NCBI GenBank assembly: GCA_963281255.1
Contig: OY725491.1
Coordinates: 2,046,001 to 2,110,000 of the forward strand
DNA length: 64,000 bases
Direction of reading: 5' to 3'
From: Aphrocallistes beatrix
Taxonomy: Eukaryota > Porifera > Hexactinellida > Sceptrulophora > Aphrocallistidae
The notes under the pieces are model-generated. The model saw only the letters and a program-made list of their open reading frames with translations, did not search any database and was not told the DNA's origin. Both the position numbers and the translations under genes were made by a program. Shown piece by piece: positions 22,602 through 52,433 of this stretch. Numbering within the stretch: the first letter of the stretch is position 1; each line of letters starts with the position of its first letter.

Positions 22602-22695
22602 TGTTGTAGTCCCTACTACCCGCTAAGGATATTCTCACAAATATGTTTGATAATTGCGTGGGACACGATACAGTAATAGAAATATTGTTCAAACC
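22602..22695 (-). repeat. 3' LTR of gypsy element, distal part
   Basis: Matches 32964-33030 and 33331-33345 of the 5' LTR. It is cut after 'gttcaaacc' by the fold-back MITE. The remainder of this LTR resumes at 30500. Confidence 0.8.
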
Positions 22696-23481
22696 ATAGC
22701 CTACTATATATAAGGCCTAAGAGTAACTTAGCCAGGGATGCAGTAGAAGATGGTTGAAGAAATACATGAGCTGTCTTAAATCATTAACAAAGCACAACAG
22801 CTTAGGAATGTATTACCAGCATATATAAATATGGTGTCAAAGCACCCATATCCGTTGATAAAATTTAGATTAGTCATCAAATGATCCTATTAAGCTATAA
22901 TACAATTTATATGTCTTAATTCAATAATTTACGAGTTATTAGACAATTTATCATATTGGTCACATTTGGTAATTTGTCGAATATCTCGTAAACCATTGAA
23001 TTTAGACATAGAAATTGTATTATAGCTTAATAGGAAGTAGCCTATTTGCTATCAAATGGGATTAAATTTGAATGTCTAGCTATCGCTGTTTTCAAGATAT
23101 AGCCCCAACTGACCAAAACACGTTTCCATAGCAACACTGGAATGTAAGAACATTCCATAAAAAAATTCCAAATTTTTCGTTTTAACACATTCACTTCTCA
23201 GTTCTATGCGAAAAACCTTATAATAAAAACACTTAGAAGTGCCCTTAAACGGCCTCTGAAAATCACTAAATTTGACCCAAATATAACCTGTTGCGCAATC
23301 ATTTGATGACTAATCTAAATTTTATCAACGGTTATGGTTGCTTTGACACCATATTTATATATGCTGGTAATACATTCCTAAGCTCTATTGTGCTTTGTTA
23401 ATGATTTAAGGCAGCTCATGTATTTCTTCAACCATCTTCTACTGCATCCCTAGTGCCAAATTCGCAAGTTACTCTGAGGCC

Positions 23482-23585
23482 TGTTGTATCGTATTTTGAG
23501 GCGCTATCGTAGATTGAGGCGCTTGTATTACTGAACCAGGGATGCGCAATATAAACTTAGTCTATCGTATTTTGAGGCACTACTG
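23482..23585. repeat. Ginger terminal inverted repeat, left
   Basis: 104 bp; one mismatch (g versus a) with the right TIR. It contains three internal copies of 'cgtattttgaggc'- or 'cgtagattgaggc'-like motifs that may be transposase binding sites (inference). Confidence 0.92.
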
Positions 23586-26017
23586 TAGAATTCTGAGGCG
23601 CTCTAAGCTAAGCTTATTTTATTTATTATATTATGTATGCGCATTTCTACTCTCTCATTTTTATTTATATTTATTAATACGCGTAATAGGTCATATTTTT
23701 AATGGCTATATACTTAGGGAATTTTGAAATTCATAAAGCGTTAAATGTTGCCATTTCCCTATAAAATTTATGTACAATTTCGTTCAAAATTGGCGTATCG
23801 AGATTTGTTACGATCGTAATTACCACTTGGGCAGTTTTCGGTTCTCATAGTATATATACGTAGTACTTCGCTACTATAATAGCATATTAGGGGGTACAGT
23901 AAAAATACATTGTCCAGGCGGAGAATAAAAATTAAGACAGACGGGAACGATAAACAAGTACCGTATTGCTTCGAATAAGCGCCCGGGCGCTTATTTATTT
24001 CGTTCACCCTTTAGACCCGGCGCTTATTCAAACCGGCGCTTATTCAAGCCCCGGCGCTTATTTTTTTCATTCGCTATTTTGACCCGGCGCTCTTTTTTTT
24101 GTTTACTACATTGACTGGCACTTTTATTTTTGCCACAACTGAGAATGTTAGTTCTATTAAAAAAGGATAATGTAATGTTTCAAAAAGCACTTGTATCTAT
24201 GCCACAGTCATTGCCACTACTGAGAATACTAGTTTGATATGATGTTCAGAGAACTAAAATGCCCCGGCGCTTATTCAAGCCCCGGCGCTTATTCGAGCCC
24301 CGGCACTTATTCATGCCCCGGCGCTTATTCGAGCCCCGGCGCTTATTTATTTCGCTCACCCTTTAGACCCGGCGCTTATTCAAACCGGCGCTTATTCAAG
24401 CCCCGGCGCTTATTCAGGGAAATACGGTAATTAATTTTACATAGCCTTAGTCCGAAATTGAATGGGTAACTGTTATGAACACAAAATCTTTATGCAGGTA
24501 GAGTATAAGCCTAAAATACACAGTAAAATGGTATCCAAAGGTTATCATTATTTTTTGGATATTTTTGAGTGAATTTTACTACCGAGAAGCGAGATATTAC
24601 TACGGAGATGATTCAAGTTGTGAATATTTCTTTTACATTTACTTATTTCAGGTCTTCTTTTCGAAATTGGTCAGACAATTCAGTCGGATCTTTAATTCAG
24701 TTAACTTTGTAGTTGATGAGCATTCTGTTAATTTAGTAAAATTTCATTGAAATTCATCAATACCTCGTACAGTATATACATTACTAATTATCTCTATTAT
24801 CGCCCAACTCCAAGTACGTATCTAATAACCCGTTTACTAACAAAAGTGACCATTTGAAATAAGCATAGTTACATTTTATTCAACAGCATTGTTACCAAAG
24901 AGACAATATCATCATGATACAAACATTAAGCTTTACATGTTTTAGAATATCAAATTAACATAATTAAATAGCAAACATCATTTACAGCATATGTAACGAA
25001 TAAACAATAACCTAGAAGAAATCTAAAGGACAGAAGTTGTTAATAGATATACGTTGTATTTAATTAATTAAGTGGCGAAATTTTTAAAAGAATTTCGAAA
25101 TTAATAAAGTGGTAAAATTAGTCATTACTCTTTGAAATCTATGTGCCATTTCGTTCAAAACGGCTTATCCCGATTTGTAACACAGTGTACAAATCTGGTA
25201 GTTTATTATTTAGTATTAATTAGTATATTTAGTTAGTAATAATTCAGACATTGTGATGGTCAGCCTATACCGATTTCGAATGCGTCAGATCAATATACTT
25301 CTAGAGTCAGATTGTACCGAGTCGAAATGTACAAAATAGCAACTGTAGAGTTCTGTGGGTCCGTAACCGATTCGAGCGGATGAACTGAACTCGTGAAACA
25401 CTGGAGAATCGAGATTGTGTATACCAAGGTCTGAGTAAGAGCAATTTTCAGACGAGTGACACACGTTCACTTAAGAAACTCATTTTGAAAAATAATTAGA
25501 TGTGAAATTATAAAAAGTGTTAAATGTTGCAATGTAGAAGCGAGATTGGTGTGCTCGCAAGTTCATGCGAATTTCTTATTTGTCCATGTATATATTTACA
25601 CGAGGTTAATTAATTAAATAGCACCAGGATTGTCAGAGGATTTAGTCAGGAATAGTGTACAATGTACATGTGTATATATTGTATTAGATCGCAATGAGTA
25701 TTACAAGTAAATGAGTTAACCTAATATATTATAATCTCCACTGTATTTACTGAAAACGAAACAGACAGACAATTAAGTACGTAGTAGACGTCAGTTATCC
25801 TAACATGATGGAACTTAACTGAAAGGGGTTCGGATAACTGACCTTCTACTGTATTGACATAGTATAGTACTTGTAGAAAATAAATTAGTTAAACTCACTT
25901 GATTTCAATCTGTGTTTCGTCCCGGGATTGGACTCATCAGTTACGTTCCCTTTCACGTAATACACAGCAGATGGATGTGTGGGTGGTGATGTGTCTGTGT
26001 TTCGATACTGAGTACAT
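23586..26017. other. Ginger 3' non-coding region
   Basis: No coding exons. It has the GC-rich MITE at 23960-24429 and an internal repeat: 'ccatttcgttcaaaa..ggc.tatc.cgatttgt' occurs at 23770-23805 and 25150-25188, each preceded by 'aaattcat/taataaagyg'. The rest is AT-rich. Confidence 0.6.
23960..24429. mobile_element. MITE with 18-bp GC-rich internal tandem repeats
   Basis: Ends 'accgtattgcttcgaataag' and (complement) 'accgtatttccctgaataag' form the TIR. Inside, 'ccccggcgcttattcaag'-type units repeat at 23999-24070 and 24259-24418. A relative lies at 56054-56336. Confidence 0.75.
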
Positions 26018-29000
26018 TCATTCGACTAACAGCGCTTCATCTGGTACAATCCCATAGGTTGGAGTGGGGCTGTTCAACATTGATATGACTGGTTCATAAT
26101 GATTAACATAGTTGGTTATGTAGAGAGTGGCAGTCGGATTTGTACTAGCTCTATGTAAGCTCCAGCGCACTTCACGAATCAATGAACCTTGACTTCTATA
26201 TTCGCTGTTAGCTACATATATGTCTGCATCAAGTATAGCTGAAGCAGCCATGATTTCTACGTCACTTGCCCAAGTCCCTTCAATATGAACAAGGTTTTCC
26301 GTTAGAAAATATTCACACGGTGTCGTTCGTTTGGATCTAAAACACCATCCAAGTTTAGATGTGCCCTCACTCGCAATAAATCTGGCAATCAAGGAGCGAA
26401 GCTGTAGATGGCTGTTTTGACTCCCAGTAATTATTTTAGAGAGGCAACGAAATAAGCAGTTGCCATCTCTTTTAATATCCTCAGTTTCGTAAGGTTCGTA
26501 ACCACTCAGGGGCCGTCCTACGATATTAGATGGTTGCCTACTAACAGAATCGAATGTTAGTCCCAAGATATTGCATTTATTTCTTTGCCACTTCTCGTCA
26601 ATAACATCAATTTCAGGGGATTTAGCACGGTTATCTGGAAAATGATACGGAGTTGTGTCTGGAAGAGTGTCCCACAACATCGTATTCAAGTATTGCATAG
26701 CCTAAACGGAAATATTTATTAACTATTCCATCCAGCATACAGCATTAGATATTATTGAATACTTACTACTTACCACAAAATACAATACTTTGTGTGTATA
26801 TCGAGCAGCTTGAATGTCGGTTAAGTCAGGAAAGAAATCTCTCGTCCATCCTAAAACTGTCTCGATTATCTCTCTCTTCTAAAAAGAATAGTTATCAGAT
26901 ATTGTTGTAATACGCTAAATTGCTTACACGAGTAAATCGTAAACTTACAATATTGTCTTCTCTTTCGCCAATCAAAAGCTGAAAAAGTAAAGTATTGGGC
27001 ACGTAATCATGATTCACCTTGAGCTTGTTATGCAATTCTTCGTGGAGAGGAGTCATGAAAGTCCCCTCTCTCACGTTCTGCTCAAGAATTCCCTTTTGAT
27101 GATAAAGATAAATAAAGTAACAACTTAAATAACATCATCATTAGAATGATTACAGAAACATTATTCGTAGTTACAATAGCATTATAATATTGAATCAGAT
27201 CTCAAACATTGACGTCAATCAACAGAATTTTGTGAAATAATTATCATTATACGTATGAAACCAAAGAAAGAAGAAAAGAAACACCCTTACTTTCAGGCTT
27301 GCGAGATGGGTATCTATGGATTCTTTGGTAAATCCGAATAGTTGAGCCTAGAAAATTGGAACGCCATGATTTATATCTTGTTACATATAATTCCTCAAAC
27401 AACCTCTGGAATCCATATGATATTGCAAAATATAAATTATTTCCAATTCTCTTACCTGAGAAGAGTCGATTCTTGTTCGCTTTCCATCTGGGCTTGCTTT
27501 ATCTGCTGATTTTCGCTTCCTCTCTCCTGGTTTGGCAGATCTTTGAAAGTAAGGTCGCACGATATGAATAGGAATTTTCTTATCGCGATTGGTTCCTAAT
27601 TCCTCCTTTGAGATCGTAACGTTACTATTCGTTACCTCTGAGATTGTATACGGTCCTAAATATTTGGGTTGCTTCTTGGTATTAGGTAACCGCTTGAGTT
27701 TAGGCATGTTAATGTATGATATTAGCTCGCCTTTTTTCAGAGAGGAACTAGAGTAATTGAATAATAAAATGTAAACCGAAAAGTGAGCATAGATTGAAAT
27801 ATAGCTAAACTAGGAATGTTGTGGTTACTGAAAGTTAATTGAAAGTGAATGTACACTGAAAATGAAAGTGGGGTCATTTCTGTGTATACTTTTGACCCCA
27901 AGTCAAACTCGCAATATATATTATAATTATAATATATATATTATTAATTATCATTGTAATTTCAACTCACCATCCTTGATTGACTTTCTTATTGTACTGC
28001 ATCGACTGTTTCGTTTGCTCGAAATTGATAGAATCAACAGCCAACTTCTGTGTTGCAGCACGACAATCATCTATCATGAGAACTTCTTCTTGGGGCTGGT
28101 CAAGAGGTGGGGAAAATTCATCTTCAATCTGTTCCATTTCATCTTGTGGAAGTAAGACTTTAGTTAGGATGGCCTCCTCCATTTCAAAATCTTCTTCAAC
28201 AGTAGAAGGCAGATTGTTGATGGCCGATAAAAGATCTTCGTGCCTGGATTCTCTTCCCCACATCACCTTGAATGCTGTTTGTCCGTGAGATCTTTTTTTC
28301 GTCGAATTCATTGCAATTGTCGCGGATTTAAGCAGTTTGGACCAATGCTCTCCGGTCTGAATTTCCATTTTAGTAAGTTTTCTAAAATAAACATTTTAAT
28401 GTTTCAATTTAGTACAATGAAAAGAAACAATTCATTAAAAAATTGATAAAGAAGGAAATAAGAAATTAGATGGCAACTTCAGATTCAATAACATAGGAAC
28501 TGAATAAATAACTCACGTTTTAAGAATCTTGTTGTGTGCTTCCACTAAGCCATTTGCCATTGGGTGGTAAGCACGAGTGCTACGATTATCGACATGTAGC
28601 TTTTGGTGAAATTCCTTGAATATCTAGATATATATTATGATTAACAAGTAGTTATTCAAACATCTGCCGATATATAGTAATAAATGAAAGATATTTACGT
28701 ACGCTACTCGTGAACTCTTTCCCTTGATCGTGCTGGATGATGTCAGGTAGTCCTATATCAAGATAGATATCCTTCAAGTTCTGGATTAGTTCTTCTGAGG
28801 TTTTAGACTTGAGAGGACGTACCACCACATACTTGCTCAAATAGCAAACAGTCACTAAGACATGTTTGTAGCCCTCAGCACTCTCGGGAAGGTCACAAAT
28901 GAGATCCATTCCTATATGTCTCCATGGAGTTGAAGGAGGTGGGATTGGTTGGAGCTTTTTTTGCGGTTGAGGTGGCAAGGCCGCTGACATTTGACATGTA

Positions 29001-30246
29001 TTACAAGTCTTCACCTATTTAATGGTATAATCTTGTTATTAGCTAGGTAAGATCTTATCATAAGATCATTGAAAATAAAACTTAGAATTGTTTGCTAGCA
29101 TTTAATCTAGTCAACTAGTTAGGATTTCACACATGGTGAAGCAATGTTTTCTAAAATGATCGGATTTCTACAATGATGATTTGCAACCCTTTATTTACTA
29201 CTAATTCAAGTGCTTATTTAAATCAGACATTAATTAAATGCTAGAATTTAGCAATTCGTTAATTACAATCACTTACATAATATTCAATGTCTTTGTACAT
29301 CCCTGTCCATGTGTATCTTTGCTGGACTGAATGAACGGTTGCATTCATTCCGGGATGGCCGACTTCATCATGGAATTTTTTGTAGATTTCTTGAACCTGA
29401 GAACTAGATGGAACTTCCAAATCAGTTTCTCTACCCTTCACGTTTACTCTCTAGAATAATTAAAATTATAAGTTTGGCCTAGATAGCACTTAAGAAAATT
29501 GACAGCTCCATGCTATCAATTCGAATATGTATACATTTCTAATGCTTCAGGTGAGCTCACAGTTCAATTACTACTAGTTCTAAATCATGATACCATTTTG
29601 CAGAACTAGTTCCGTTAGTTCTACATTATTTGACAAATTAGGCTAATCAAAGGTCATTGTCTAGGGATGAACAGTTATGTTTCCATGGATGGTGCGTCAG
29701 AACCAAATATAGGGGAAGAACCATATATGACATAACAGTTTCAACCCCGCATACACAAACCCAGGGCCAGATTGCACACGATGTGGCACTCCTGCATAGA
29801 ATATCAATTATCAAGCATTTCAAACCGTCACACCGACATCTCACACCCTACCTCGCTCAATATACACTGCTTAGAAGCTTATAATTTACATTCAATATGC
29901 AAACAATAAAATGCCATATATGGGGGACTGGCTACGCCACGCATTTTTTTCGTCGATTTGGTGGGCCTCACTCAGAATTGAGCCTAAGCCAGTGCAACTT
30001 AATTGGCTTGGTGGCTAATACGGCCATTCACACCCAGGCGATACCCCCTTGTACTCCCGAAATAAAAGCAGTAAAATTAGAATATGAAAGCAATCTTACC
30101 TTGTAGAGCATGTTGGAATCTCTGATGAAAAAGGATGACAATTTCCTTTTGTAATTCCACCTCGTCTTCCGTGAAATCAATGCTTCCTCCGGGTAAGTGC
30201 CTTCGGTAAGAAACTTGACGATTTCTTGGAATTTGGCTGAATCCAT
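26018..30246 (-). CDS. Ginger transposase: H2C2 zinc site, DD35E integrase core, OTU protease
   Basis: Exons on the minus strand: 30100-30246, 29277-29450, 28703-29014, 28517-28623, 27971-28381, 27456-27747, 27291-27347, 26949-27092, 26774-26878, 26018-26701. Every junction has GT/AG and keeps phase, giving about 810 residues with no internal stop. Residues 76-114 carry H76, H81, C111 and C114 (H2C2 zinc site). The catalytic core has D144 (GMDLICD), D203 (IIQHDQGKEF) and E239 (ANGLVEAHN), spaced DD35E. About 395-440 is a GPY/F-like region (KYLGPYTISEV). Residues 584-810 are an OTU fold with the D-G-N-C box (D662, C665) and a late His (NHYEPV, H784). The transposase should cut and insert the element; the OTU part would remove ubiquitin or a similar modifier. 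Pairing of these roles is inference. Confidence 0.88.
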
Positions 30247-30365
30247 TGGTATACTATCGCCAATTACAAATTGATGTATGAAACAAAAACGATATAACGA
30301 AATATTGATTCAAAATAGAAAATATTTTGCTTATAATATGGTTAGTAACATATTTATACTCTTAG
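30247..30365. promoter_or_regulatory. Short 5' leader of the Ginger gene
   Basis: Only about 120 bp separate the start ATG (30246) from the inner edge of the right TIR. The promoter must lie in this AT-rich stretch or in the TIR itself. No TATA box was assigned. Confidence 0.4.
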
Positions 30366-30469
30366 CAGTAGTGCCTCAAAATACGATAGATTAAGTTTAT
30401 ATTGCGCATCCCTGGTTCAGTAATACAAGCGCCTCAATCTACGATAGCGCCTCAAAATACGATACAACA
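30366..30469. repeat. Ginger terminal inverted repeat, right
   Basis: Complement of the left TIR with one mismatch. It ends ACAACA followed by the GGCC duplication. Confidence 0.92.
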
Positions 30470-30592
30470 GGCCTTATTATGGTAGGCTATGTTCAAACTA
30501 AGTATGGCTAAGAAATGTAGCGGCACTGGTTGCGCTTGATTTATGTACTAACATTATGGTTATAGTAAAACTATAAACTAATTATTGTAACA

Positions 30593-32963
30593 TCACTTCC
30601 CCTTTTTATCCCTTCAAACTTCATCCTTCTTTTTGCCCATGGTAGATTTCCTCGAAGTTTCTACTTTTCTCTTCTTGTCCACTTCACTCCACGGGATCAT
30701 TTCTCCGAAGAACTGTCGCGGTTTCCTCTCTTTCTTGGGATATCTTCGTGCATCTGTCGCATTCTCAGTTCTAGTCTCTGCGCCCTCTATTGGTGTTATT
30801 ACATTCTGAGCAACGATATTCTGCTCAGGTTCGGTTACTTCCCCGTTCACATCGTGCGCAATATCTCTTGCTATGTCCTCTCTTTCATTGCCACTCGCCC
30901 CTATGTTCTGCCATGTTAACACCGTTGTAGAATACAAATATGGTTTGCACCGACTTATGTGATGCCATTTACGTTTCGTACCAATATTAAGTTTGAGGTC
31001 GGGCCACTTCGTTTCTAATACTTCATACGGTCCATCGAATTTTGGATCTAACGGTTCACGAGCATTTCTTTTAAGCAACACCATACCCCCTTTCTCGATA
31101 CCCACTTTCTTCTGCCTCTGTTAAGTCTCGCTCTCACATTTTCCAAGTTCTTATCGCTGTTCGCCTTCGCGATCTCTTCTAGTTCCACTTTTTGCCTCTA
31201 ATGTACTAAGAAATTCTCCATGGGAATTCGCCTCTTCCTTGAGATTCCGACACTAAGCGTCAGCTGGAGTCTTTGGCTCCCTCACATATGTGAGCATATG
31301 GGATGACATTGGTGTTGTAGTGTTTTTCATAGCATTTATATCAAAGCTCACTTCCTTCAAAAAGGACGGCCACGACCCCTTTGGCAATTTCCGTTCCATT
31401 AACATACAAGATATAACCTGCTTGACAGTACCTATATTTCGCTCTGCCATACCGTCATATTGGGGATGATAAGGGGTTGTATGACGCTTTTCTATCCCAA
31501 GTGACTTGCAGAACCTCCTGAACTATTTTCCATCCACGTTTGGACCCTAATCTGAGAGTATCACGTCTGGTACTCCGTGCCCACGGAAGATCCAATTTTC
31601 TTCGAATGCGTCTATTACTGTCGTCGCAGGCTGGTCCTTCATTGCCGCCAGTTCTACTTGCCTAGTGAACAAATCAACCATCAGAAGAAATAACGGAATT
31701 CCCCATCGATCCATGGAAGAGTCCCTATATCCATTCCTACATTGCATCCTGGCGAGTTCCTTTCAAGTTCGAACTTCTGAATGGGTTGCTCTCCTCGGTT
31801 ATTTGTCTTTGCTTTTTGGAATACTAGACAGCCTCTACAGTATATCCTGACATCCCTGGCCATCCTAACCCCAAAATAACTTTTTCTAAGCGATGTCAAG
31901 GTACCTGCTTGTCCAAAGTGCTCCCTCGAATGTACAAGTTCCAACACATCACATCTCATAGATGTAGGGACCACTACTCGATCGTCAAAGTACAGCATTC
32001 CTCTTTTCTCATTCAAATGTCCAACGACTCTTTACAGCTGACCTTTTGTCGCGCCACCCTCTTGCAGCTGCTTCAAAGCATCCTGGATTACAGGATCCTC
32101 CTGTTGTCCTTTTCCAAGCTTGCGGGTTACCTGCTTTTCCCAGTAGTATATCCTATTCTCGAATCCCCCATCTTTGTTTACCTCGTCATACTCAAGTTCT
32201 GTTGATCTGCTCAAATAATCCGCCATGTGATTGTTCGCCCCAGGTCTATACTCGATACGGTAGGGTAGCTCTTCCAGTTCCAGGATCCACCGTCCGAATG
32301 TGCCTGGGATCCTTTTGACGCCTCATCTACTTGAGCGGGTTATGATCGTAATCAAAATCACCTCATGTGCGTTCAGCTTGCGATAGTCTACCGCAAATCT
32401 CATCTGGCCGTTTACCAACACAACGTCCGAAGCCCAAGGCGACTTAGAAGGTCTGACGATTCCATTTGTTAGCATTTCTTCTACCTGTTTCCCAATTTAT
32501 GGTGCCACTGTGGGGGCAGCCGCCGTGGTCTGTGTTTTATGGGGAGAGCATCTCCGGTGATGATCACATGTTCGCATCCCTCTACTTTGACAAAATTTAT
32601 GCAAACCTGTCGTATTGAATGTTTAGCCCTCTTCGCTTCTTTTGATAACCGCGCGAAAAAGTCGTCCACTCTTTCGCCACATGCCCAATGCATATCATAG
32701 TACCTTCGAACGTCTTCGAATTCGTCTATTATTGGGTCCAAGTTATGCTGCGCTCTGCCTCTTTCCTAGACACGTGGACTGGGAGCATTCTGATTGCTGC
32801 TTTCTGCCACCATCAGTTATGATGAGTGCAGCTACTGCGGTTCTAATATCGGCTCCCAATCTTCAATTCTCTGACCTTCCTGCAGAGGGGGAACGGTGAT
32901 AGTCATCGGCGTTGCCATATGCGGTATGCAAGCGTCTAATACTTTCTGGATGGACAATATTTA
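30593..32963 (-). pseudogene. Broken gag-pol of the gypsy element
   Basis: From right to left: a gag start (about 32720-32925) matching the start at 38952 in style; a gag stretch containing 'DDFFARLSKEAKRAK' (32741-32600) that runs directly into an RT-like start (32595-32490, 'HRPRRLPPQW'). RT is then mostly deleted, and an RNase H tail follows at about 32226-32345. Integrase follows in pieces: a zinc-site region (31681-32016), core pieces with 'VGMDIGTLPW' and 'GHGVPDVILSD' (31547-31850), the region at 31253-31450, and the C-terminal part (30614-31105, 'KFDGPYEVLE'). Frameshifts and stops separate them. Confidence 0.8.
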
Positions 32964-36504: not shown

Positions 36505-38566
36505 AACCTACCAAAGGAATCTTCGTTGACTGAAGTATTCGAAACCCTGAGAAGTCAGGAGCTAGGTAAAAATGTACAGACTTAGTAGGGAGGCCTACCC
36601 AGACTGGAAGGAGGCCTTTCATATAGAAGCTGACGCTTCAGGTACTGGGGTCGGGGCTGTACTAGGACAGATGGACAAGATCACTAATAAGGTGAGACCT
36701 ATCGAATATTTCTCATCAGCACTCAGCAGTAGCCAGAGAAACTATTCCGCAGGCCAATTAGAGACATGGGCTGCTATAGCCGCAACCCGAAAATGGAGCG
36801 TATATCTAAAAGGCGCAGAACGAGTAGTCGTACATACGGATCACTCACCCCTGAAGTGGCTACAAGCACAGAAGGACCCAAAACCAACTTTTGCAAGGTG
36901 GTTAATGGAGCTTCAAGGATTGCCACTAGAAATTGAGGTACGTCCGGGAAAAGAAAATTGCGTAGCGGACTATCTTAGTCGGAACCAAACCGCTAGTTTT
37001 GACGAGGAAGTGAATTCCGAGGATACATTCGAAGACAAGATTTACTTGGCAGAAGAAGTTCAAGACTTACCAGACAGAATCGCTAAAGGACAGTTGGATG
37101 ACGAAATTATAACGAACGCGTTGGCACAAATGCGAGCACAGGGTGAAGTGATAAACGGGCCTCTCAAGAGAGTACGGGAACACCTGCGGGATGTAGGGGA
37201 CCAGTTGTACTTTCAGAATCGTGTGGTGGTGCCTAAACAGATGAGAAGTGAGGTTATAAGGCGTGTACACTCGCAACATCACTTCGGCAAAGCTGGTACT
37301 TTACAGTCTGTACGAAAGAACTTTTTCTGGATAAAAATGGCTGGAGATGTGGGGGAATTCTGCCGTACTTGTCTGACCTGCAACCGATCGAAGCCTTCAA
37401 ACAAAGGCAAGGAACCAATTCGTGAAATGTGCGGTAATGAAGGAATCCCCGGATACGCCGTAGGCATCGACATAGGGACCTTACCTTGGTCGGAAGATGA
37501 CTATCGGTATTTCTTGCTCATTGTAGATCTGTTCAGCCGCCACATAGAAATTGCACCCCTGAGAGACCAACGAGCGACCACACTCGTCGAAGCTTTCGAG
37601 CACAGCTGGATTTACAGGGGACACGGGGTCCCCAAAGTAATATTGAGCGATCAAGGGTCAAACGTTGACGGGGAAACATTTCGGAGTTTCTGCCGAGCAC
37701 TCGGAGTGAATAAGAGAAGAACGACGCCCTACAGACCTCAGTCGGACGGGATGTCCGAGAGAAATATAGGCATGGTCAAGCAGGTTATTCGTTGCTTACA
37801 ACAAGACCGACATCTGGATCGAGGTTCATGGCCCTCGTTACTCGCAGAGGTATCCTTCCATTGCAATAGCATGGTGAACAACACGACACGAATCTCCCCC
37901 CATATGTTGACGTATGGCCGAGAGCCATTGAGCCCGCTCGACGCTTGGTGTAATGAATTACAAGAGGACGAGATGAATTCACACAACGAGTACCTAGAAA
38001 GTCTAAGACGCAAGCAAACTGAACTCAACGAGATAGCTAAATACAACTCATTTAATAGTCTGGAGAAAGCAAGGAGAAGACTTAATGAAGGAAAATCTGA
38101 GTCAAAAGCAGCAATTGGTGATCTGGTCTTCCTTAAAAGGCAAGCTAGAGAAGACTCCCTAGTCCCCAGATTCGACGGACCATATAAGGTACTCGATCGA
38201 AATGGCTCAGATGTGAAATTAAGACTACCACGCAGGGACAAGTGGGTTCACCTTGATCATTGTAAGTTGTTTGAAGGAACGACGACCACAGTTCACCCGC
38301 CGTCTGCTACAACAGAAGAAACAGAACCCGGCGCCGTTCCAAACGCCCAACCAGAGCAATTAGGTCCTATGGTAAGCCAGGAGGACACCCCGAATGGATT
38401 AGAGACCAGTAGTAGCTCAGCAGCTGCGGAGTACGAGCAACCGAATAGTCTAGAAGACATAGAAGAAACCGAGTTCGTACCGGAGAGACGTTATCCAAGG
38501 AGAGAAACAAGACCACCCCAATACCTAGCGGATTATACAGAATGGGACGGAATGCCACGTCAATAA
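36505..38566 (+). pseudogene. gypsy pol 3' half: RNase H and integrase
   Basis: The long ORF (36572-38566, 664 residues) lacks gag, protease and RT. A broken RT-to-RNase H connection with stops precedes it (36505-36590). RNase H has D21, E64, D90 and D133. An H2C2 zinc site lies about 227-275 (CRTCLTC). The integrase core has D300 (GIDIGTLPW), D360 (ILSDQGSN) and E396 (DGMSERNIG), spaced DD35E. A GPY-type segment (FDGPYKVL) is near 535 and a charged tail follows. A stop is followed by a polypurine tract (aaaagggaggtga) at 38604-38616. Integrase residues are intact, but without RT the copy cannot replicate by itself. Confidence 0.85.
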
Positions 38567-39833: not shown

Positions 39834-41426
39834 ATGGGACAACTTATGCCTAATGCCCCTCCTCTCCCTGATAATTGCGACAATTGTTTTATATGTCGAA
39901 GTTATGGGTGTGTTTGCAATAATCCCCAAGGTCATAATACACCACCTCCACCAGCTCCACCACCTACACATACACCACCTACACCTACACCACCTACACC
40001 ACCTCCACTACATATACCACATATACCACCTCTACCACATATACCACCTCTACCACATATACCATCAGTACCTAAACATATTGCATTAGATGCACAAGAT
40101 CTACTAAATGCTGCAGGTATTCTCACCAAGCTCTTTATAAAACTAACTGTATTACCACATGTTCTTCTGGGATTTGATCCTAGCGAAGACCTAGCTATCT
40201 TAAATAAGGTGAGAGCTGCTTCTAAATTGATGGGAGATGATAATATAATATTGGAAATGATCGATGCAGCGAAACAAGGAAATTGGGGAGATGTTTTTAA
40301 CATGTTATCCAAAAATTCACTTATAATAAATTGTATTCCTAGCGAAAGGGCATGGGGAGTATTGCATCAGGCCGCGTGGTACGGGGATTTAGATGTGGTT
40401 AATAGATTGATCGCTTTTGAGTCGTGCGATCCATTTCTCAGAACTAAGCAGGATAAGGCAAGCGAATTTGGTCCAGATCAAACAGCTGATAAACTTACCA
40501 AGAATGCAGATATTCGTAATACCATAATACAAGCCCAGGAAAAGAAAAGAAAAGAGAGAGAAGCTCTTCAAGACAAATCTTTTATTTCTGTAAAAAATGA
40601 AAAAGATCTGAAAGTTGAATCATTATTTCTTGCTCTAGCCAGTTTTCAGAATGTTTTATACCCAGAATCCATCTCGAACAAGGATTCACTTTTGTATTCA
40701 ACGCTACTAGAAGACTCATTTAAATTTATCAACAACGGAAATCAATGGGAATTGGCAAGAAATGAGGTTGCATTACAGCTTCAAATGGTTGACATTGCTA
40801 CTGCTAAATTCCTGGCGACAGGGGATGAAAGTGGAAACATTTTCCAACCCAAATCAGAAACAAAAGAAGAGTTCTTTAGACGAGTTATACACATCTATAC
40901 AAAGAACAACAGCATAACAAGTAACAATTCTATGTACAGTTCCAAGCCGTTCTATTCTGCTCTGAACAAGTCACTACGGATGCAAGGCAATCCTGTACTA
41001 ACAGCTGTTCTGGGCGAGGATCTAGCCTTGGCAGCGTATGGCATTCTTCTCAACTCCGTTCTCCTGTTCTGGAATCAACTCATCCCCGCTCAAGTGATGA
41101 CGTATAGGGGCTTGGACTTACCAATGCATATTATTGAAGAATACAAAGTAGGGGAATCGTTTACATGGCTCTGTTTCACCTCGTCATCAGTAAAAAGGAA
41201 AATGGCAGAAAACTTTGCTGCACGTGGGAACGATGTTAAGTGTATTTTCCATATTCGCAACGATAGCCTCGGCAAATATTCATCAAAAGGAATATCAAAA
41301 TATTCAGAATATTCGGATGAAGGAGAATATCTCTACCCGAGCGGTGTGAAATTTCGTGTTGTCAATTCTGATTATACGAGTAATCCGCGCACGGCAAGTT
41401 TAACTATAGTTCTTGAAGATTATTAA
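39834..41426 (+). CDS. Proline-rich / ankyrin / R-S-E ADP-ribosyltransferase protein
   Basis: 530 residues, intronless. The N-terminus has a cysteine patch (CDNCFICRSYGCVC) and then a Pro/His/Thr-rich linker (about 36-85; PTHTPPTPTPPTPPP). A helical part follows with one or two ankyrin-like units (VLHQAAWYGDLDVVNRLI, about 184-201). Residues about 260-530 fit the arginine-specific mono-ADP-ribosyltransferase fold: R425 (TYRG), the S-T-S-like FTSSS (448-452), and E-x-E (E496, E498 in DEGEYLYPSG). Such enzymes move ADP-ribose from NAD to protein arginine. No signal peptide or membrane anchor is seen, so a cytoplasmic role is more likely. A gypsy LTR fragment lies just upstream and an ATT repeat downstream. 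The catalytic residues look intact; the substrate is unknown. Confidence 0.82.
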   Translation: MGQLMPNAPPLPDNCDNCFICRSYGCVCNNPQGHNTPPPPAPPPTHTPPTPTPPTPPPLHIPHIPPLPHIPPLPHIPSVPKHIALDAQDLLNAAGILTKLFIKLTVLPHVLLGFDPSEDLAILNKVRAASKLMGDDNIILEMIDAAKQGNWGDVFNMLSKNSLIINCIPSERAWGVLHQAAWYGDLDVVNRLIAFESCDPFLRTKQDKASEFGPDQTADKLTKNADIRNTIIQAQEKKRKEREALQDKSFISVKNEKDLKVESLFLALASFQNVLYPESISNKDSLLYSTLLEDSFKFINNGNQWELARNEVALQLQMVDIATAKFLATGDESGNIFQPKSETKEEFFRRVIHIYTKNNSITSNNSMYSSKPFYSALNKSLRMQGNPVLTAVLGEDLALAAYGILLNSVLLFWNQLIPAQVMTYRGLDLPMHIIEEYKVGESFTWLCFTSSSVKRKMAENFAARGNDVKCIFHIRNDSLGKYSSKGISKYSEYSDEGEYLYPSGVKFRVVNSDYTSNPRTASLTIVLEDY

Positions 41427-50690: not shown

Positions 50691-52433
50691 ATGCTTTGCT
50701 GTTCGCTAGCTGCTCTAATATCCATGGCAACCAACACAGATAATTCTTCAGAAAAAGTTGCATCAGAAGGGACAAAGGCTCCCACTGAGAAAGACCCCCG
50801 TAACTTCCGCGAAGGCCCTCCTATTTATACTTCTGCCGCAGAGGGATCTGACACGGTTGGAACTGGGAGTAAAGAAAAACCTTTCAAATCAGTCCTGCAA
50901 GCAATGCTAAGTGCTGGAGAGGAGCCTTTCCCTCAGATATTAGCAGTCGGGGAGAAGGATTGGGAGTTAATAAGCAAAACAGCGTACAAGAATGCTTTGA
51001 AGATATACCGCAAGAAAAAACCGACTCCTGGGCCTGGGGGCGAGGCCAAACCCCTCTCCAAAGAAGAGACCCCAGCGCAGGCTGAAGTCAGTATAAAAAT
51101 GGACTCCAGCCTACCCGAACCTCTCAGAGCGAAGATAAGGGACGTGGCGAAGCATGTGGGGAAGCGAGTGTTCGTTCAAGGCTGGGCTGATAGTAAACGG
51201 CAGCAGAGCAAGAAGCTCATCTTCCTCGTACTCCGAGATGGCACAGGACTCCTTCAATGTCTGTTGACCGACAACTTAGCTCTGACCCCAGAAGCTCTCG
51301 CCCTCTCCCTGGAGAGCAGTGTCAGTGTCTGGGGACAGGTCTCCAAGGTGAAGGAGGGACAGAGTGCCCCGGGGGGATTGGAGGTTGTCGCCGATTATTG
51401 GGAGCTGGTGGGTGCGTCTCCTAGCGGCGGAGCTGAAGCCATCGTGAATGAGTCCTCCGGGGTCGACCTGCAGCTGGACCAGCGGCACCTCATGCTACGC
51501 ACCCAATCGCTGTCCAACACGTTCCGCCTGCGCTCATACATCACGCAATGCTTCCGCGACCACTACTTCGCCAAGGGCTACGTGGAGGTGACTCCTCCCA
51601 CGCTGGTGCAGACTCAGGTGGAAGGAGGCAGCACGCTGTTCAAGCTGGACTACTTCGGGGAGCCCGCCTACCTCACGCAGTCCTCGCAGCTGTACCTGGA
51701 GACGGTGATCCCCTCCCTCGGGGACGTGTACTGCATCTCGCAGTCCTACCGCGCAGAAGGCTCGCGCACGCGGCGCCACCTGGCAGAGTACACCCACGTG
51801 GAAGGGGAGTGTCCCTTCATCGCCTTCAGCGACCTGCTCGACTCGCTGGAGGACCTCATCGTGGACGTGGCCGAGCGGGCCATGAGCTCGCATCTCGGCG
51901 AGCTGCTGCGGCAAGTGAACCCTGACTTCAAACCCCCGAAGCGGCCCTTCAAGCGGATGACGTACTCGGACGCGATAAAGTACCTCCGCGAGCACGAGAT
52001 CAAGAAGGAGGACGACACCTACTACGAGTACGGGGAGGACATTCCTGAGAAGCCAGAGCGCACCATGACGGACCAGATCGGACTGCCGATCATGCTGACC
52101 CGCTTCCCCGTCAGCATCAAGTCCTTCTACATGGCCAGGTGTGCGGACGATCCCGGCGAGACTGAGTCGGTGGACGTCCTGCTCCCGGGCGTAGGGGAGG
52201 TGGTGGGCGGGAGCATGAGGTCCTGCAAGTACGAGGAGCTCATGGCAGGATTCCAGCGGGAGGGCATCGACCCCAAGCCCTACTACTGGTACTTGGACCA
52301 GCGGAAGTACGGCACTTGTCCCCATGGGGGCTACGGACTCGGGCTGGAGCGCTTCCTGACCTGGATGCTAGGGAAGTTCCACATCCGCGAGGTCGTGCTG
52401 TACCCTAGGTTCTCTGAACGCTGCACTCCGTAG
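50691..52433 (+). CDS. NARS1: Cytosolic asparaginyl-tRNA synthetase
   Basis: 580 residues, intronless. It joins Asn to tRNA-Asn using ATP in the cytosol. The N-terminal extension (IYTSAAEGSDTVGTGSKEKP) is the eukaryote-specific domain, followed by a lysine-rich linker (YKNALKIYRKKK). An OB-fold anticodon-binding domain (about 145-265; KRVFVQGWADSKRQQSKKL) precedes the class II catalytic domain: motif 1 (DHYFAKGYVEVTPPTLVQTQ), motif 2 (YRAEGSRTRRHLAEYTHVEG), motif 3 (GGYGLGLERFLTWML). Length is near that of animal cytosolic enzymes (about 550). The ATG at 50724 (MATNTDNSS) has G at +4 and may be the real start instead of 50691; the first 11 residues look unconserved. The second half (from about 51400) is markedly GC-rich, unlike the rest of the window. 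Confidence 0.95.
   Translation: MLCCSLAALISMATNTDNSSEKVASEGTKAPTEKDPRNFREGPPIYTSAAEGSDTVGTGSKEKPFKSVLQAMLSAGEEPFPQILAVGEKDWELISKTAYKNALKIYRKKKPTPGPGGEAKPLSKEETPAQAEVSIKMDSSLPEPLRAKIRDVAKHVGKRVFVQGWADSKRQQSKKLIFLVLRDGTGLLQCLLTDNLALTPEALALSLESSVSVWGQVSKVKEGQSAPGGLEVVADYWELVGASPSGGAEAIVNESSGVDLQLDQRHLMLRTQSLSNTFRLRSYITQCFRDHYFAKGYVEVTPPTLVQTQVEGGSTLFKLDYFGEPAYLTQSSQLYLETVIPSLGDVYCISQSYRAEGSRTRRHLAEYTHVEGECPFIAFSDLLDSLEDLIVDVAERAMSSHLGELLRQVNPDFKPPKRPFKRMTYSDAIKYLREHEIKKEDDTYYEYGEDIPEKPERTMTDQIGLPIMLTRFPVSIKSFYMARCADDPGETESVDVLLPGVGEVVGGSMRSCKYEELMAGFQREGIDPKPYYWYLDQRKYGTCPHGGYGLGLERFLTWMLGKFHIREVVLYPRFSERCTP

Follow-up and report, generated by a model that had tools for sequence, protein, structure and literature searches.

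The window, a 64,000-nucleotide stretch of the genome of the glass sponge Aphrocallistes beatrix, contains a 6,988-bp transposon at positions 23482-30469. Its terminal inverted repeats (TIRs) are 104 bp long and identical at 103/104 positions, and the element termini read TGTTG...CAACA. The left TIR (23482..23585, plus strand) starts TGTTGTATCG and has 8 matches in the genome at 99-100% identity, i.e. the two ends of each of four elements; the right TIR occupies 30366..30469 (minus strand). The target-site duplication GGCC lies at 23478..23481 on the left and at 30470..30473 on the right. The transposon sits within the terminal part of a MITE present in high copy number, the main part of which occupies 22695..23481 and the remainder ~30474-30491; uninterrupted copies of this MITE hold a single GGCC. 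Moreover, the 3' noncoding part of the window copy contains a nested element of 469 bp (23958..24426), a repeat element rich in GCGCTTATT that has inverted ends and a duplicated TA and is present in none of the three sister copies described below. The TIRs with one mismatch and the GGCC duplication had been placed at the same coordinates by an earlier sequence-only reading, which overlooked both the nested element and the MITE context of the insertion.

The transposase gene (26018..30246, minus strand) is predicted to consist of ten exons, the junctions of which are kept in related families; as that reading had claimed from matching phases, the exons join into 2,433 nt encoding 810 aa without an internal stop, and all introns (9/9) are GT-AG. 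All exons being on the minus strand, exon 1 (30100..30246) encodes a candidate YPYY-like motif from Y18 P19 onward; in the region upstream of the zinc finger, Y18-P19 is accompanied by aromatic residues in NYKRKL and SSFF. Exon 2 (29277..29450) encodes H76 and H81, and exon 3 (28703..29014) C111 and C114, which complete the H2C2 zinc site, together with the catalytic residues D144 and D203. The catalytic E239 is in exon 4 (28517..28623), giving a DD35E arrangement in which D203 and E239 are 35 residues apart. Exon 5 (27971..28381) holds the end of the integrase core and an acidic linker, exon 6 (27456..27747) the GPY motif at residues 415-417, recognised by motif only, and exons 7 (27291..27347), 8 (26949..27092) and 9 (26774..26878) encode linker. 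Exon 10 (26018..26701) encodes the OTU protease domain (Pfam 662-779), with C665 and H784, and the stop codon. Pfam profiles scored above their cut-offs for Integrase_H2C2 (66.1 vs 25.5 bits), rve (36.2 vs 32.6 bits) and OTU (36.0 vs 23.3 bits). The zinc site and the residues D144, D203, E239, C665 and H784 are exactly where they had been placed before.

By its H2C2 site and Gypsy-like DDE core, GPY motif, 104-bp TIRs, TGTTG end, 4-bp duplication and OTU domain, the element is of the Ginger1 type, as set against published Ginger1 elements by description. OTU-bearing Ginger1 transposases (Ginger1-1, -2, -3 and -11_HM; 1_AC; 1-AP and 2-AP) were described by Bao, Kapitonov and Jurka in 2010, who suggested a role in relation to ubiquitin (PMC2836005). 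The fusion of OTU and Ginger1 itself is thus not new, and the earlier proposal of an unstudied mechanism is not supported as new, since both the integrase-OTU chain and its action on ubiquitin in transposition had been put forward in that paper. What is new here are the GNNC duplications, the conserved splice between integrase and OTU, the kept OTU active site, the integrase-like dN/dS and the co-divergence of OTU and integrase. With the published OTU-bearing elements, the window element shares a 4-bp duplication, TIRs in the range of 40-270 bp, a length of up to ~7 kb, TGTNR ends and a single transposase with H2C2, DDE, GPY, a C-terminal OTU domain and, as a candidate, a YPYY-like motif (PMC2836005); however, the published table lists 0-4 introns versus nine in the window gene. 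Ginger1 elements with Ulp1 (e.g. Ginger1-5_HM) and the host genes GIN1/GIN2 have the Gypsy-like integrase and GPY in common with the window element, although the Ulp1 families carry a ubiquitin-like protease of another kind than OTU. Ulp1-bearing Ginger1 was not found: PF02902 has 9 matches genome-wide, none of which, by eye, is within 9 kb of the integrase matches listed. Ginger2/TDD elements share the Gypsy-like integrase, TIRs and a 4-5-bp duplication, but Ginger2 has neither GPY nor YPYY, and its target is the AT-rich RTATAY.

A TIR search of the 100.5-Mb genome, a check proposed with the earlier reading, identified three further full-length copies that are 99.3-99.9% identical to the window copy; therefore, the structure in the window is not a chance arrangement. 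The duplications of the four full-length copies differ, i.e. GGCC, GAAC, GCCC (GGGC) and GCAC (GTGC). Empty sites had also been asked after, and we detected uninterrupted paralogous sites for all four copies, namely three MITE copies (L018-L020) for the window copy, three full-length sites for L010, one for L009 and one, partial, for L011. Because each of the four copies has its own 4-bp duplication and there are uninterrupted paralogous sites, we conclude that this is a mobile element and not a domesticated gene. That the window copy is a fixed, ancient host gene domesticated from a Ginger1 element in the manner of GIN1 would agree with its long intact multi-exon gene and with the domestication of Ginger1 documented in vertebrates, but is extremely improbable: it is refuted by TIRs and a duplication that are still intact, by the presence of three sister copies at sites unrelated to this one, and by the uninterrupted paralogous sites. 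The window copy differs from L011 by 5 substitutions in 6,517 aligned bases, from L010 by 36 in 6,511 and from L009 by 43 in 6,513; L009 and L010, i.e. 2/4 full-length copies, have frame-shifting indels within exons. Judged from its sequence, the window element is a young, autonomous-looking Ginger1-type DNA transposon that appears to have moved recently, and the view of it as complete and recent, with OTU in the same predicted chain, is supported. The 5 substitutions relative to L011 also fit the suggestion that it may still be active.

Among 26 stretches examined, 14 have an intact duplication, and these perfect duplications are GNNC in 14/14. GNNC makes up 3.6% of the 4-mers in the window, and 14/14 would arise by chance with a probability of ~5e-21 if the sites are independent. 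In addition, A is at position -1 in 24/28 half-sites, and three uninterrupted sites the junctions of which were read (L117, L118 and L119) have a single GNNC each. By contrast, the duplication of Ginger1 is CCGG or CCGT/ACGG in ~99% of 112 hydra elements (PMC2836005), a target seen in 0/14 here and from which GGCC departs, as the sequence-only reading missed. Because the duplication is never CCGG or CCGT/ACGG, we label the element 'Ginger1-type, target variant'; its glass sponge host is a further difference from the published elements. The asparaginyl-tRNA synthetase of this genome is 74% identical to that of Oopsacas minuta and no more than 61% identical to those of the other named animals listed. 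The junctions GNNC-TGT...ACA-GNNC can also be read as a two-base duplication with CTGT...ACAG ends. This reading is disfavoured because, at insertions that have lost their duplication (e.g. L104, L105 and L097), the base adjoining the ends can be other than C/G. The integrase domain would join the TGT...ACA ends to the symmetric target consensus A-GNNC-T at positions staggered by 4 bp, and such a stagger would duplicate GNNC. Together, this target and that of the hydra elements provide a natural pair for studying target choice in a Gypsy-like integrase.

The one-chain gene model is a prediction from DNA, and the OTU exon could belong to another transcript, so that the protein would not be a single chain. 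However, the AG acceptor of exon 10 is conserved in 7/7 divergent families at the same place and in the same phase, which argues against a separate OTU transcript and for the same-chain claim of the earlier reading; the GT donor of exon 9 is conserved in 6/6 testable families. For all junctions across related families, acceptors are kept in 49/51 and donors in 50/50 cases. Moreover, for 34 of the 58 OTU matches listed, a listed integrase match lies 0-9 kb upstream in the same orientation, and for 2 it is in the wrong order or on the wrong strand. Finally, the distances among OTU domains and among integrases co-diverge tightly over 30 elements (r=0.919, with 0/5,000 permutations as high). A separate OTU transcript is, thus, very unlikely.

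In OTU rows picked among the better matches, most of them free of stop codons, the active-site Cys is kept in 53/53, the His in 51/52 and D662 in 50/53, and Cys and His are nearly invariant down to ~30% identity. In the integrase, D144 is kept in 32/32 and D203 in 31/31 of the rows with a letter at that position. Between families, dN/dS is 0.12-0.14 for OTU (9 unsaturated pairs) and ~0.13 for the integrase (8 pairs), the pairs being few and non-independent and most between-family pairs being saturated (median pS 0.79 for OTU and 0.84 for integrase). The nine close pairs listed with dS<0.02 have dN/dS of 0.39-2.64, around or above 1, as expected for copies that decay after insertion. The OTU exon might nevertheless be a passenger, captured once and without a role in transposition. 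In line with this, L012, which has TIRs and a GGTC duplication, contains integrase and linker exons and a tandem repeat instead of an OTU match; similarly, P0001, the Oopsacas minuta protein that is closest among outside sequences, matched the integrase domains and no OTU model, its C-terminus being without a confident family. However, L012 is a decayed copy with stops in the integrase exons as well and the tandem repeat where the OTU exon is expected, and we therefore reject it as an OTU-less family. Given this, the near-invariant Cys and His and a dN/dS as low as that of the integrase, a passenger is quite improbable. Retention of OTU for function is supported by the selection evidence, and we read the domain as a probable working part of transposition in a target-variant Ginger1-type lineage.

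How OTU would act is less certain. We suggest that it is an active ubiquitin-type cysteine protease, carried in the transposase chain to the integration complex, where it would most likely trim ubiquitin from the transposase itself, which might protect it from the proteasome, or from adjoining proteins; the substrate is a guess. The full reading, i.e. a young, autonomous-looking Ginger1-type transposon with an integrase that targets A-GNNC-T and an OTU domain active in this way at the integration complex, is in our view reasonably probable. Alternatively, OTU could act on host factors, e.g. by stripping ubiquitin off target-site chromatin or repair proteins, or blunt a host silencing pathway. 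Bao et al. preferred an involvement in DNA repair signalling (PMC2836005), the paper on VTD reports other deubiquitinase classes in Helitrons and speculates on germline inheritance (PMC9741609), and the selection evidence for OTU fits a host substrate equally. The present evidence does not distinguish this from self-deubiquitination, and we regard action on host factors as rather unlikely. A bolder form of the self-trimming proposal, which we advance only tentatively, is that the integrase of this lineage switched target from CCGG/CCGT to symmetric A-GNNC-T and that OTU is an obligate part of a self-deubiquitinating transposase, having been constrained as strongly as the catalytic core while the families radiated widely in a single sponge genome.

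Why unrelated transposons carry ubiquitin-type proteases is a question that dates from at least 2010. The many OTU-bearing Ginger1-type families in one genome, including nearly identical recent copies, provide comparative evidence for functional retention, and the same genome supplies many natural OTU sequences for direct assay; the activity of transposon OTU domains has not been assayed, according to PMC9741609. As described there, Helitrons/Helentrons with OTU or VTD deubiquitinases share a deubiquitinase-type domain on a mobile element but have a rolling-circle RepHel and no DDE integrase. When the OTU region (residues 600-810) was used as the query against proteins, none of 497 candidates reached E<=0.001, and the OTU exon, modelled without an alignment, yielded no usable structure (pLDDT 31). 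The nearest solved structure by sequence is human-type OTU domain-containing protein 1 (OTUD1; PDB 4bop), similar at only E=1.1e-4; although OTUD1 is a host deubiquitinase without an integrase fusion, it shares with the window OTU the active-site motif DGNC and the downstream helix.

The transposon occupies 23482-30469 (6,988 bp), starts with TGTTGTATCG and ends with CGATACAACA. As the sequence-only reading had stated, its terminal 104 bases are inverted copies of each other with a single mismatch, and GGCC is duplicated on either flank. The ten exons for which matching phases had been claimed lie on the minus strand, from 30246-30100 (first) to 26701-26018 (last), and join to a predicted protein of 810 aa, with all nine introns being GT-AG; moreover, the proposed catalytic residues D144, D203, E239, C665 and H784 were all found at those positions in the joined protein. 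Pfam matches above cut-off were obtained for Integrase_H2C2 (residues 65-117), rve (residues 137-232) and OTU (residues 662-779), and a GPY motif is present at residues 415-417.

A search of the 100.5-Mb genome with the TIR gave 26 matches, eight of which, at 99-100% identity, are both ends of four elements, i.e. the window copy and three further full-length copies of 6,516-6,520 bp, L009, L010 and L011. These differ from the window copy at 43 of 6,513, 36 of 6,511 and 5 of 6,517 aligned bases, respectively, and are flanked by duplications of GAAC, GCCC and GCAC in window orientation. A TA-flanked element of 469 bp (23958-24426) with GCGCTTATT repeats and inverted ends CCGTATT...AATACGG, which is nested in the 3' noncoding part of the window copy, is missing from all three in the alignment of sister copies.

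The window copy is inserted in the end of a high-copy MITE (22695-23481 and 30474-30491), for which 2,384 first-look candidates were detected genome-wide and at least 156 matches were obtained from the 40 scored. In all three MITE copies read (L018-L020), the site is uninterrupted and contains a single GGCC followed by the sequence otherwise found to the right of the transposon. Similarly, genome searches with the joined left and right flanks of the sister copies detected three full-length uninterrupted paralogs for L010 (88-90% identity), one for L009 (90%) and one partial paralog for L011 (81%, covering 1-131 of 176); the three paralogs read at the junction have one GGGC, GGAC or GAAC each. 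The search for other copies and empty sites that had been proposed yielded uninterrupted paralogous sites for all four copies, that of L011 being partial. We conclude that the window element is mobile.

Integrase and OTU probably belong to one gene. The exons were compared individually in seven divergent families (L029-L035), and a match was counted if it had E<=0.01 and extended to within 2-3 residues of the exon end; L036, in which the early exons are poorly matched, was omitted. Splice sites were present at the expected place and phase for 49 of 51 acceptors (AG) and 50 of 50 donors (GT), and both misses are exon 7 acceptors. The OTU exon acceptor is conserved in 7/7 and the exon 9 donor in 6/6. 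Moreover, when the first 58 non-window OTU rows were set against the first 58 non-family integrase rows, 34 of the 58 OTU rows were preceded by an integrase row on their own strand at a distance of 0-9 kb, and two had a listed one in the wrong order or strand.

Genome-wide, there are at least 151 OTU matches (493 candidates, 150 scored) and at least 190 integrase matches (1,129 candidates, 150 scored), the weaker of which may be Gypsy. In 53 rows picked among the better, mostly stop-free matches, with OTU identities down to ~30%, C665 is kept in 53/53, H784 in 51 of the 52 with a letter and D662 in 50/53. Among 33 elements having both parts (475 between-family pairs), median pN was 0.376 for OTU and 0.202 for the integrase part, and most pairs are saturated because median pS was 0.793 and 0.840, respectively. 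Nine unsaturated OTU pairs, which have members in common, gave dN/dS of 0.12-0.14; for the eight pairs unsaturated in both parts, also with members in common, the medians were 0.136 (OTU) and 0.128 (integrase). Close pairs gave ratios of ~1 or above, as is usual for copies that decay once inserted. Finally, protein distances of the two parts correlated with r=0.919 across 30 elements (three with partial integrase were dropped), a value reached in 0 of 5,000 permutations (maximum 0.316).

Several points count against the OTU part being kept for function. Two of the four sister copies are broken: alignment with the window copy detected frame-shifting exon indels in L009 and L010, and none in the exons of L011. 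The decayed locus L012:683-6741 has TIRs and a GGTC duplication with a tandem repeat in place of the OTU exon. The OTU region had no relative in the protein collection searched, and structure prediction of its exon was uninformative. Among outside proteins, the closest is P0001 from Oopsacas minuta, with 36% identity across 67% of the query; it matched no OTU model. Separately, the C-terminal ~100 residues of P0001, with a TCSIDN motif, had no confident family match; on a Ginger1-like integrase protein, they may represent an accessory domain of a different type.

Judged from its residues, the predicted OTU part possesses the Cys and His expected of an active protease, and it is similar to OTU domain-containing protein 1 (4bop, E=1.1e-4). 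OTU and Ulp1 domains on Ginger1, together with the ubiquitin idea, were already described by Bao et al. 2010 (PMC2836005). The integrase part would pair the TIR ends and join both at GNNC in the target DNA, the stagger being 4 bp; the manner in which Ginger1 departs from its old site was left open (PMC2836005). The OTU part would most likely protect the transposase from ubiquitin-dependent loss, the main rival being that it acts on host targets.

Target sites were examined in 26 stretches (the window, 16 longer loci and nine end pairs). In 14 of them (ten longer stretches, four end pairs), the 4 bp next to the TGT end and those next to the ACA end are perfect duplicates; all 14 duplications are GNNC, a pattern making up 3.6% of window 4-mers. 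In locus orientation, these are GGCC four times (window, L030, L031 and L106/L107), GAAC, GTGC, GGTC and GTCC twice each, and GGGC and GGAC once each; of the 28 half-sites, 24 are preceded by A. For the longer loci, the best duplication was sought up to 12 bases from the repeat ends; this biases toward finding duplications and not toward their letters. Seven longer loci (L013-L016, L029, L032 and L033) had no intact end pair within the fetched stretch, and the end pairs L102/L103, L104/L105 and L097 had no matching duplication. L108/L109 match at three of four bases and L110/L111 at two of four; the latter, two ends of one apparent element, are flanked by GACC and GTAC, both GNNC, as recombination between copies would leave. 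By contrast, 112 Ginger1 elements of hydra were inserted at CCGG (75%) or CCGT/ACGG (24%) (PMC2836005). A search confined to the open-access literature found no paper that describes GNNC targets for Ginger1 or records Ginger1 from sponges. In 2022, Repbase contained 23 entries for Ginger1 (PMC10045372); other literature considered comprises PMC9741609, PMC12440569, PMC9004415, PMC10280926 and PMC10282587.

L030 and L031, with OTU exons 68% and 59% identical to that of the window copy, likewise lie in members of this MITE family, again at the subterminal GGCC. This GGCC, struck by three different Ginger1-type families, is a landing pad. L097 (G000:C16:2581853-2582172), 320 bp with both L030-family TIRs, is a possible non-autonomous copy.

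Elsewhere in the window, a host gene consisting of a single ORF on the plus strand (50691-52430) encodes asparaginyl-tRNA synthetase, with 74% identity to the glass sponge Oopsacas minuta and 49-61% to other named animals among the 120 matches listed, the demosponge Halichondria panicea being at 60%. A downstream Gypsy-like retrotransposon piece (36566-38563, plus strand) has RNase H, H2C2 and rve by Pfam; a second ORF (30617-31120, minus strand) had no Pfam match and by eye is like a Gypsy integrase C-terminus (DGPYEV). Finally, a proline-rich ORF (39834-41423, plus strand) weakly matches NAD:arginine ADP-ribosyltransferase, at 22.9 bits against a cut-off of 22.3.
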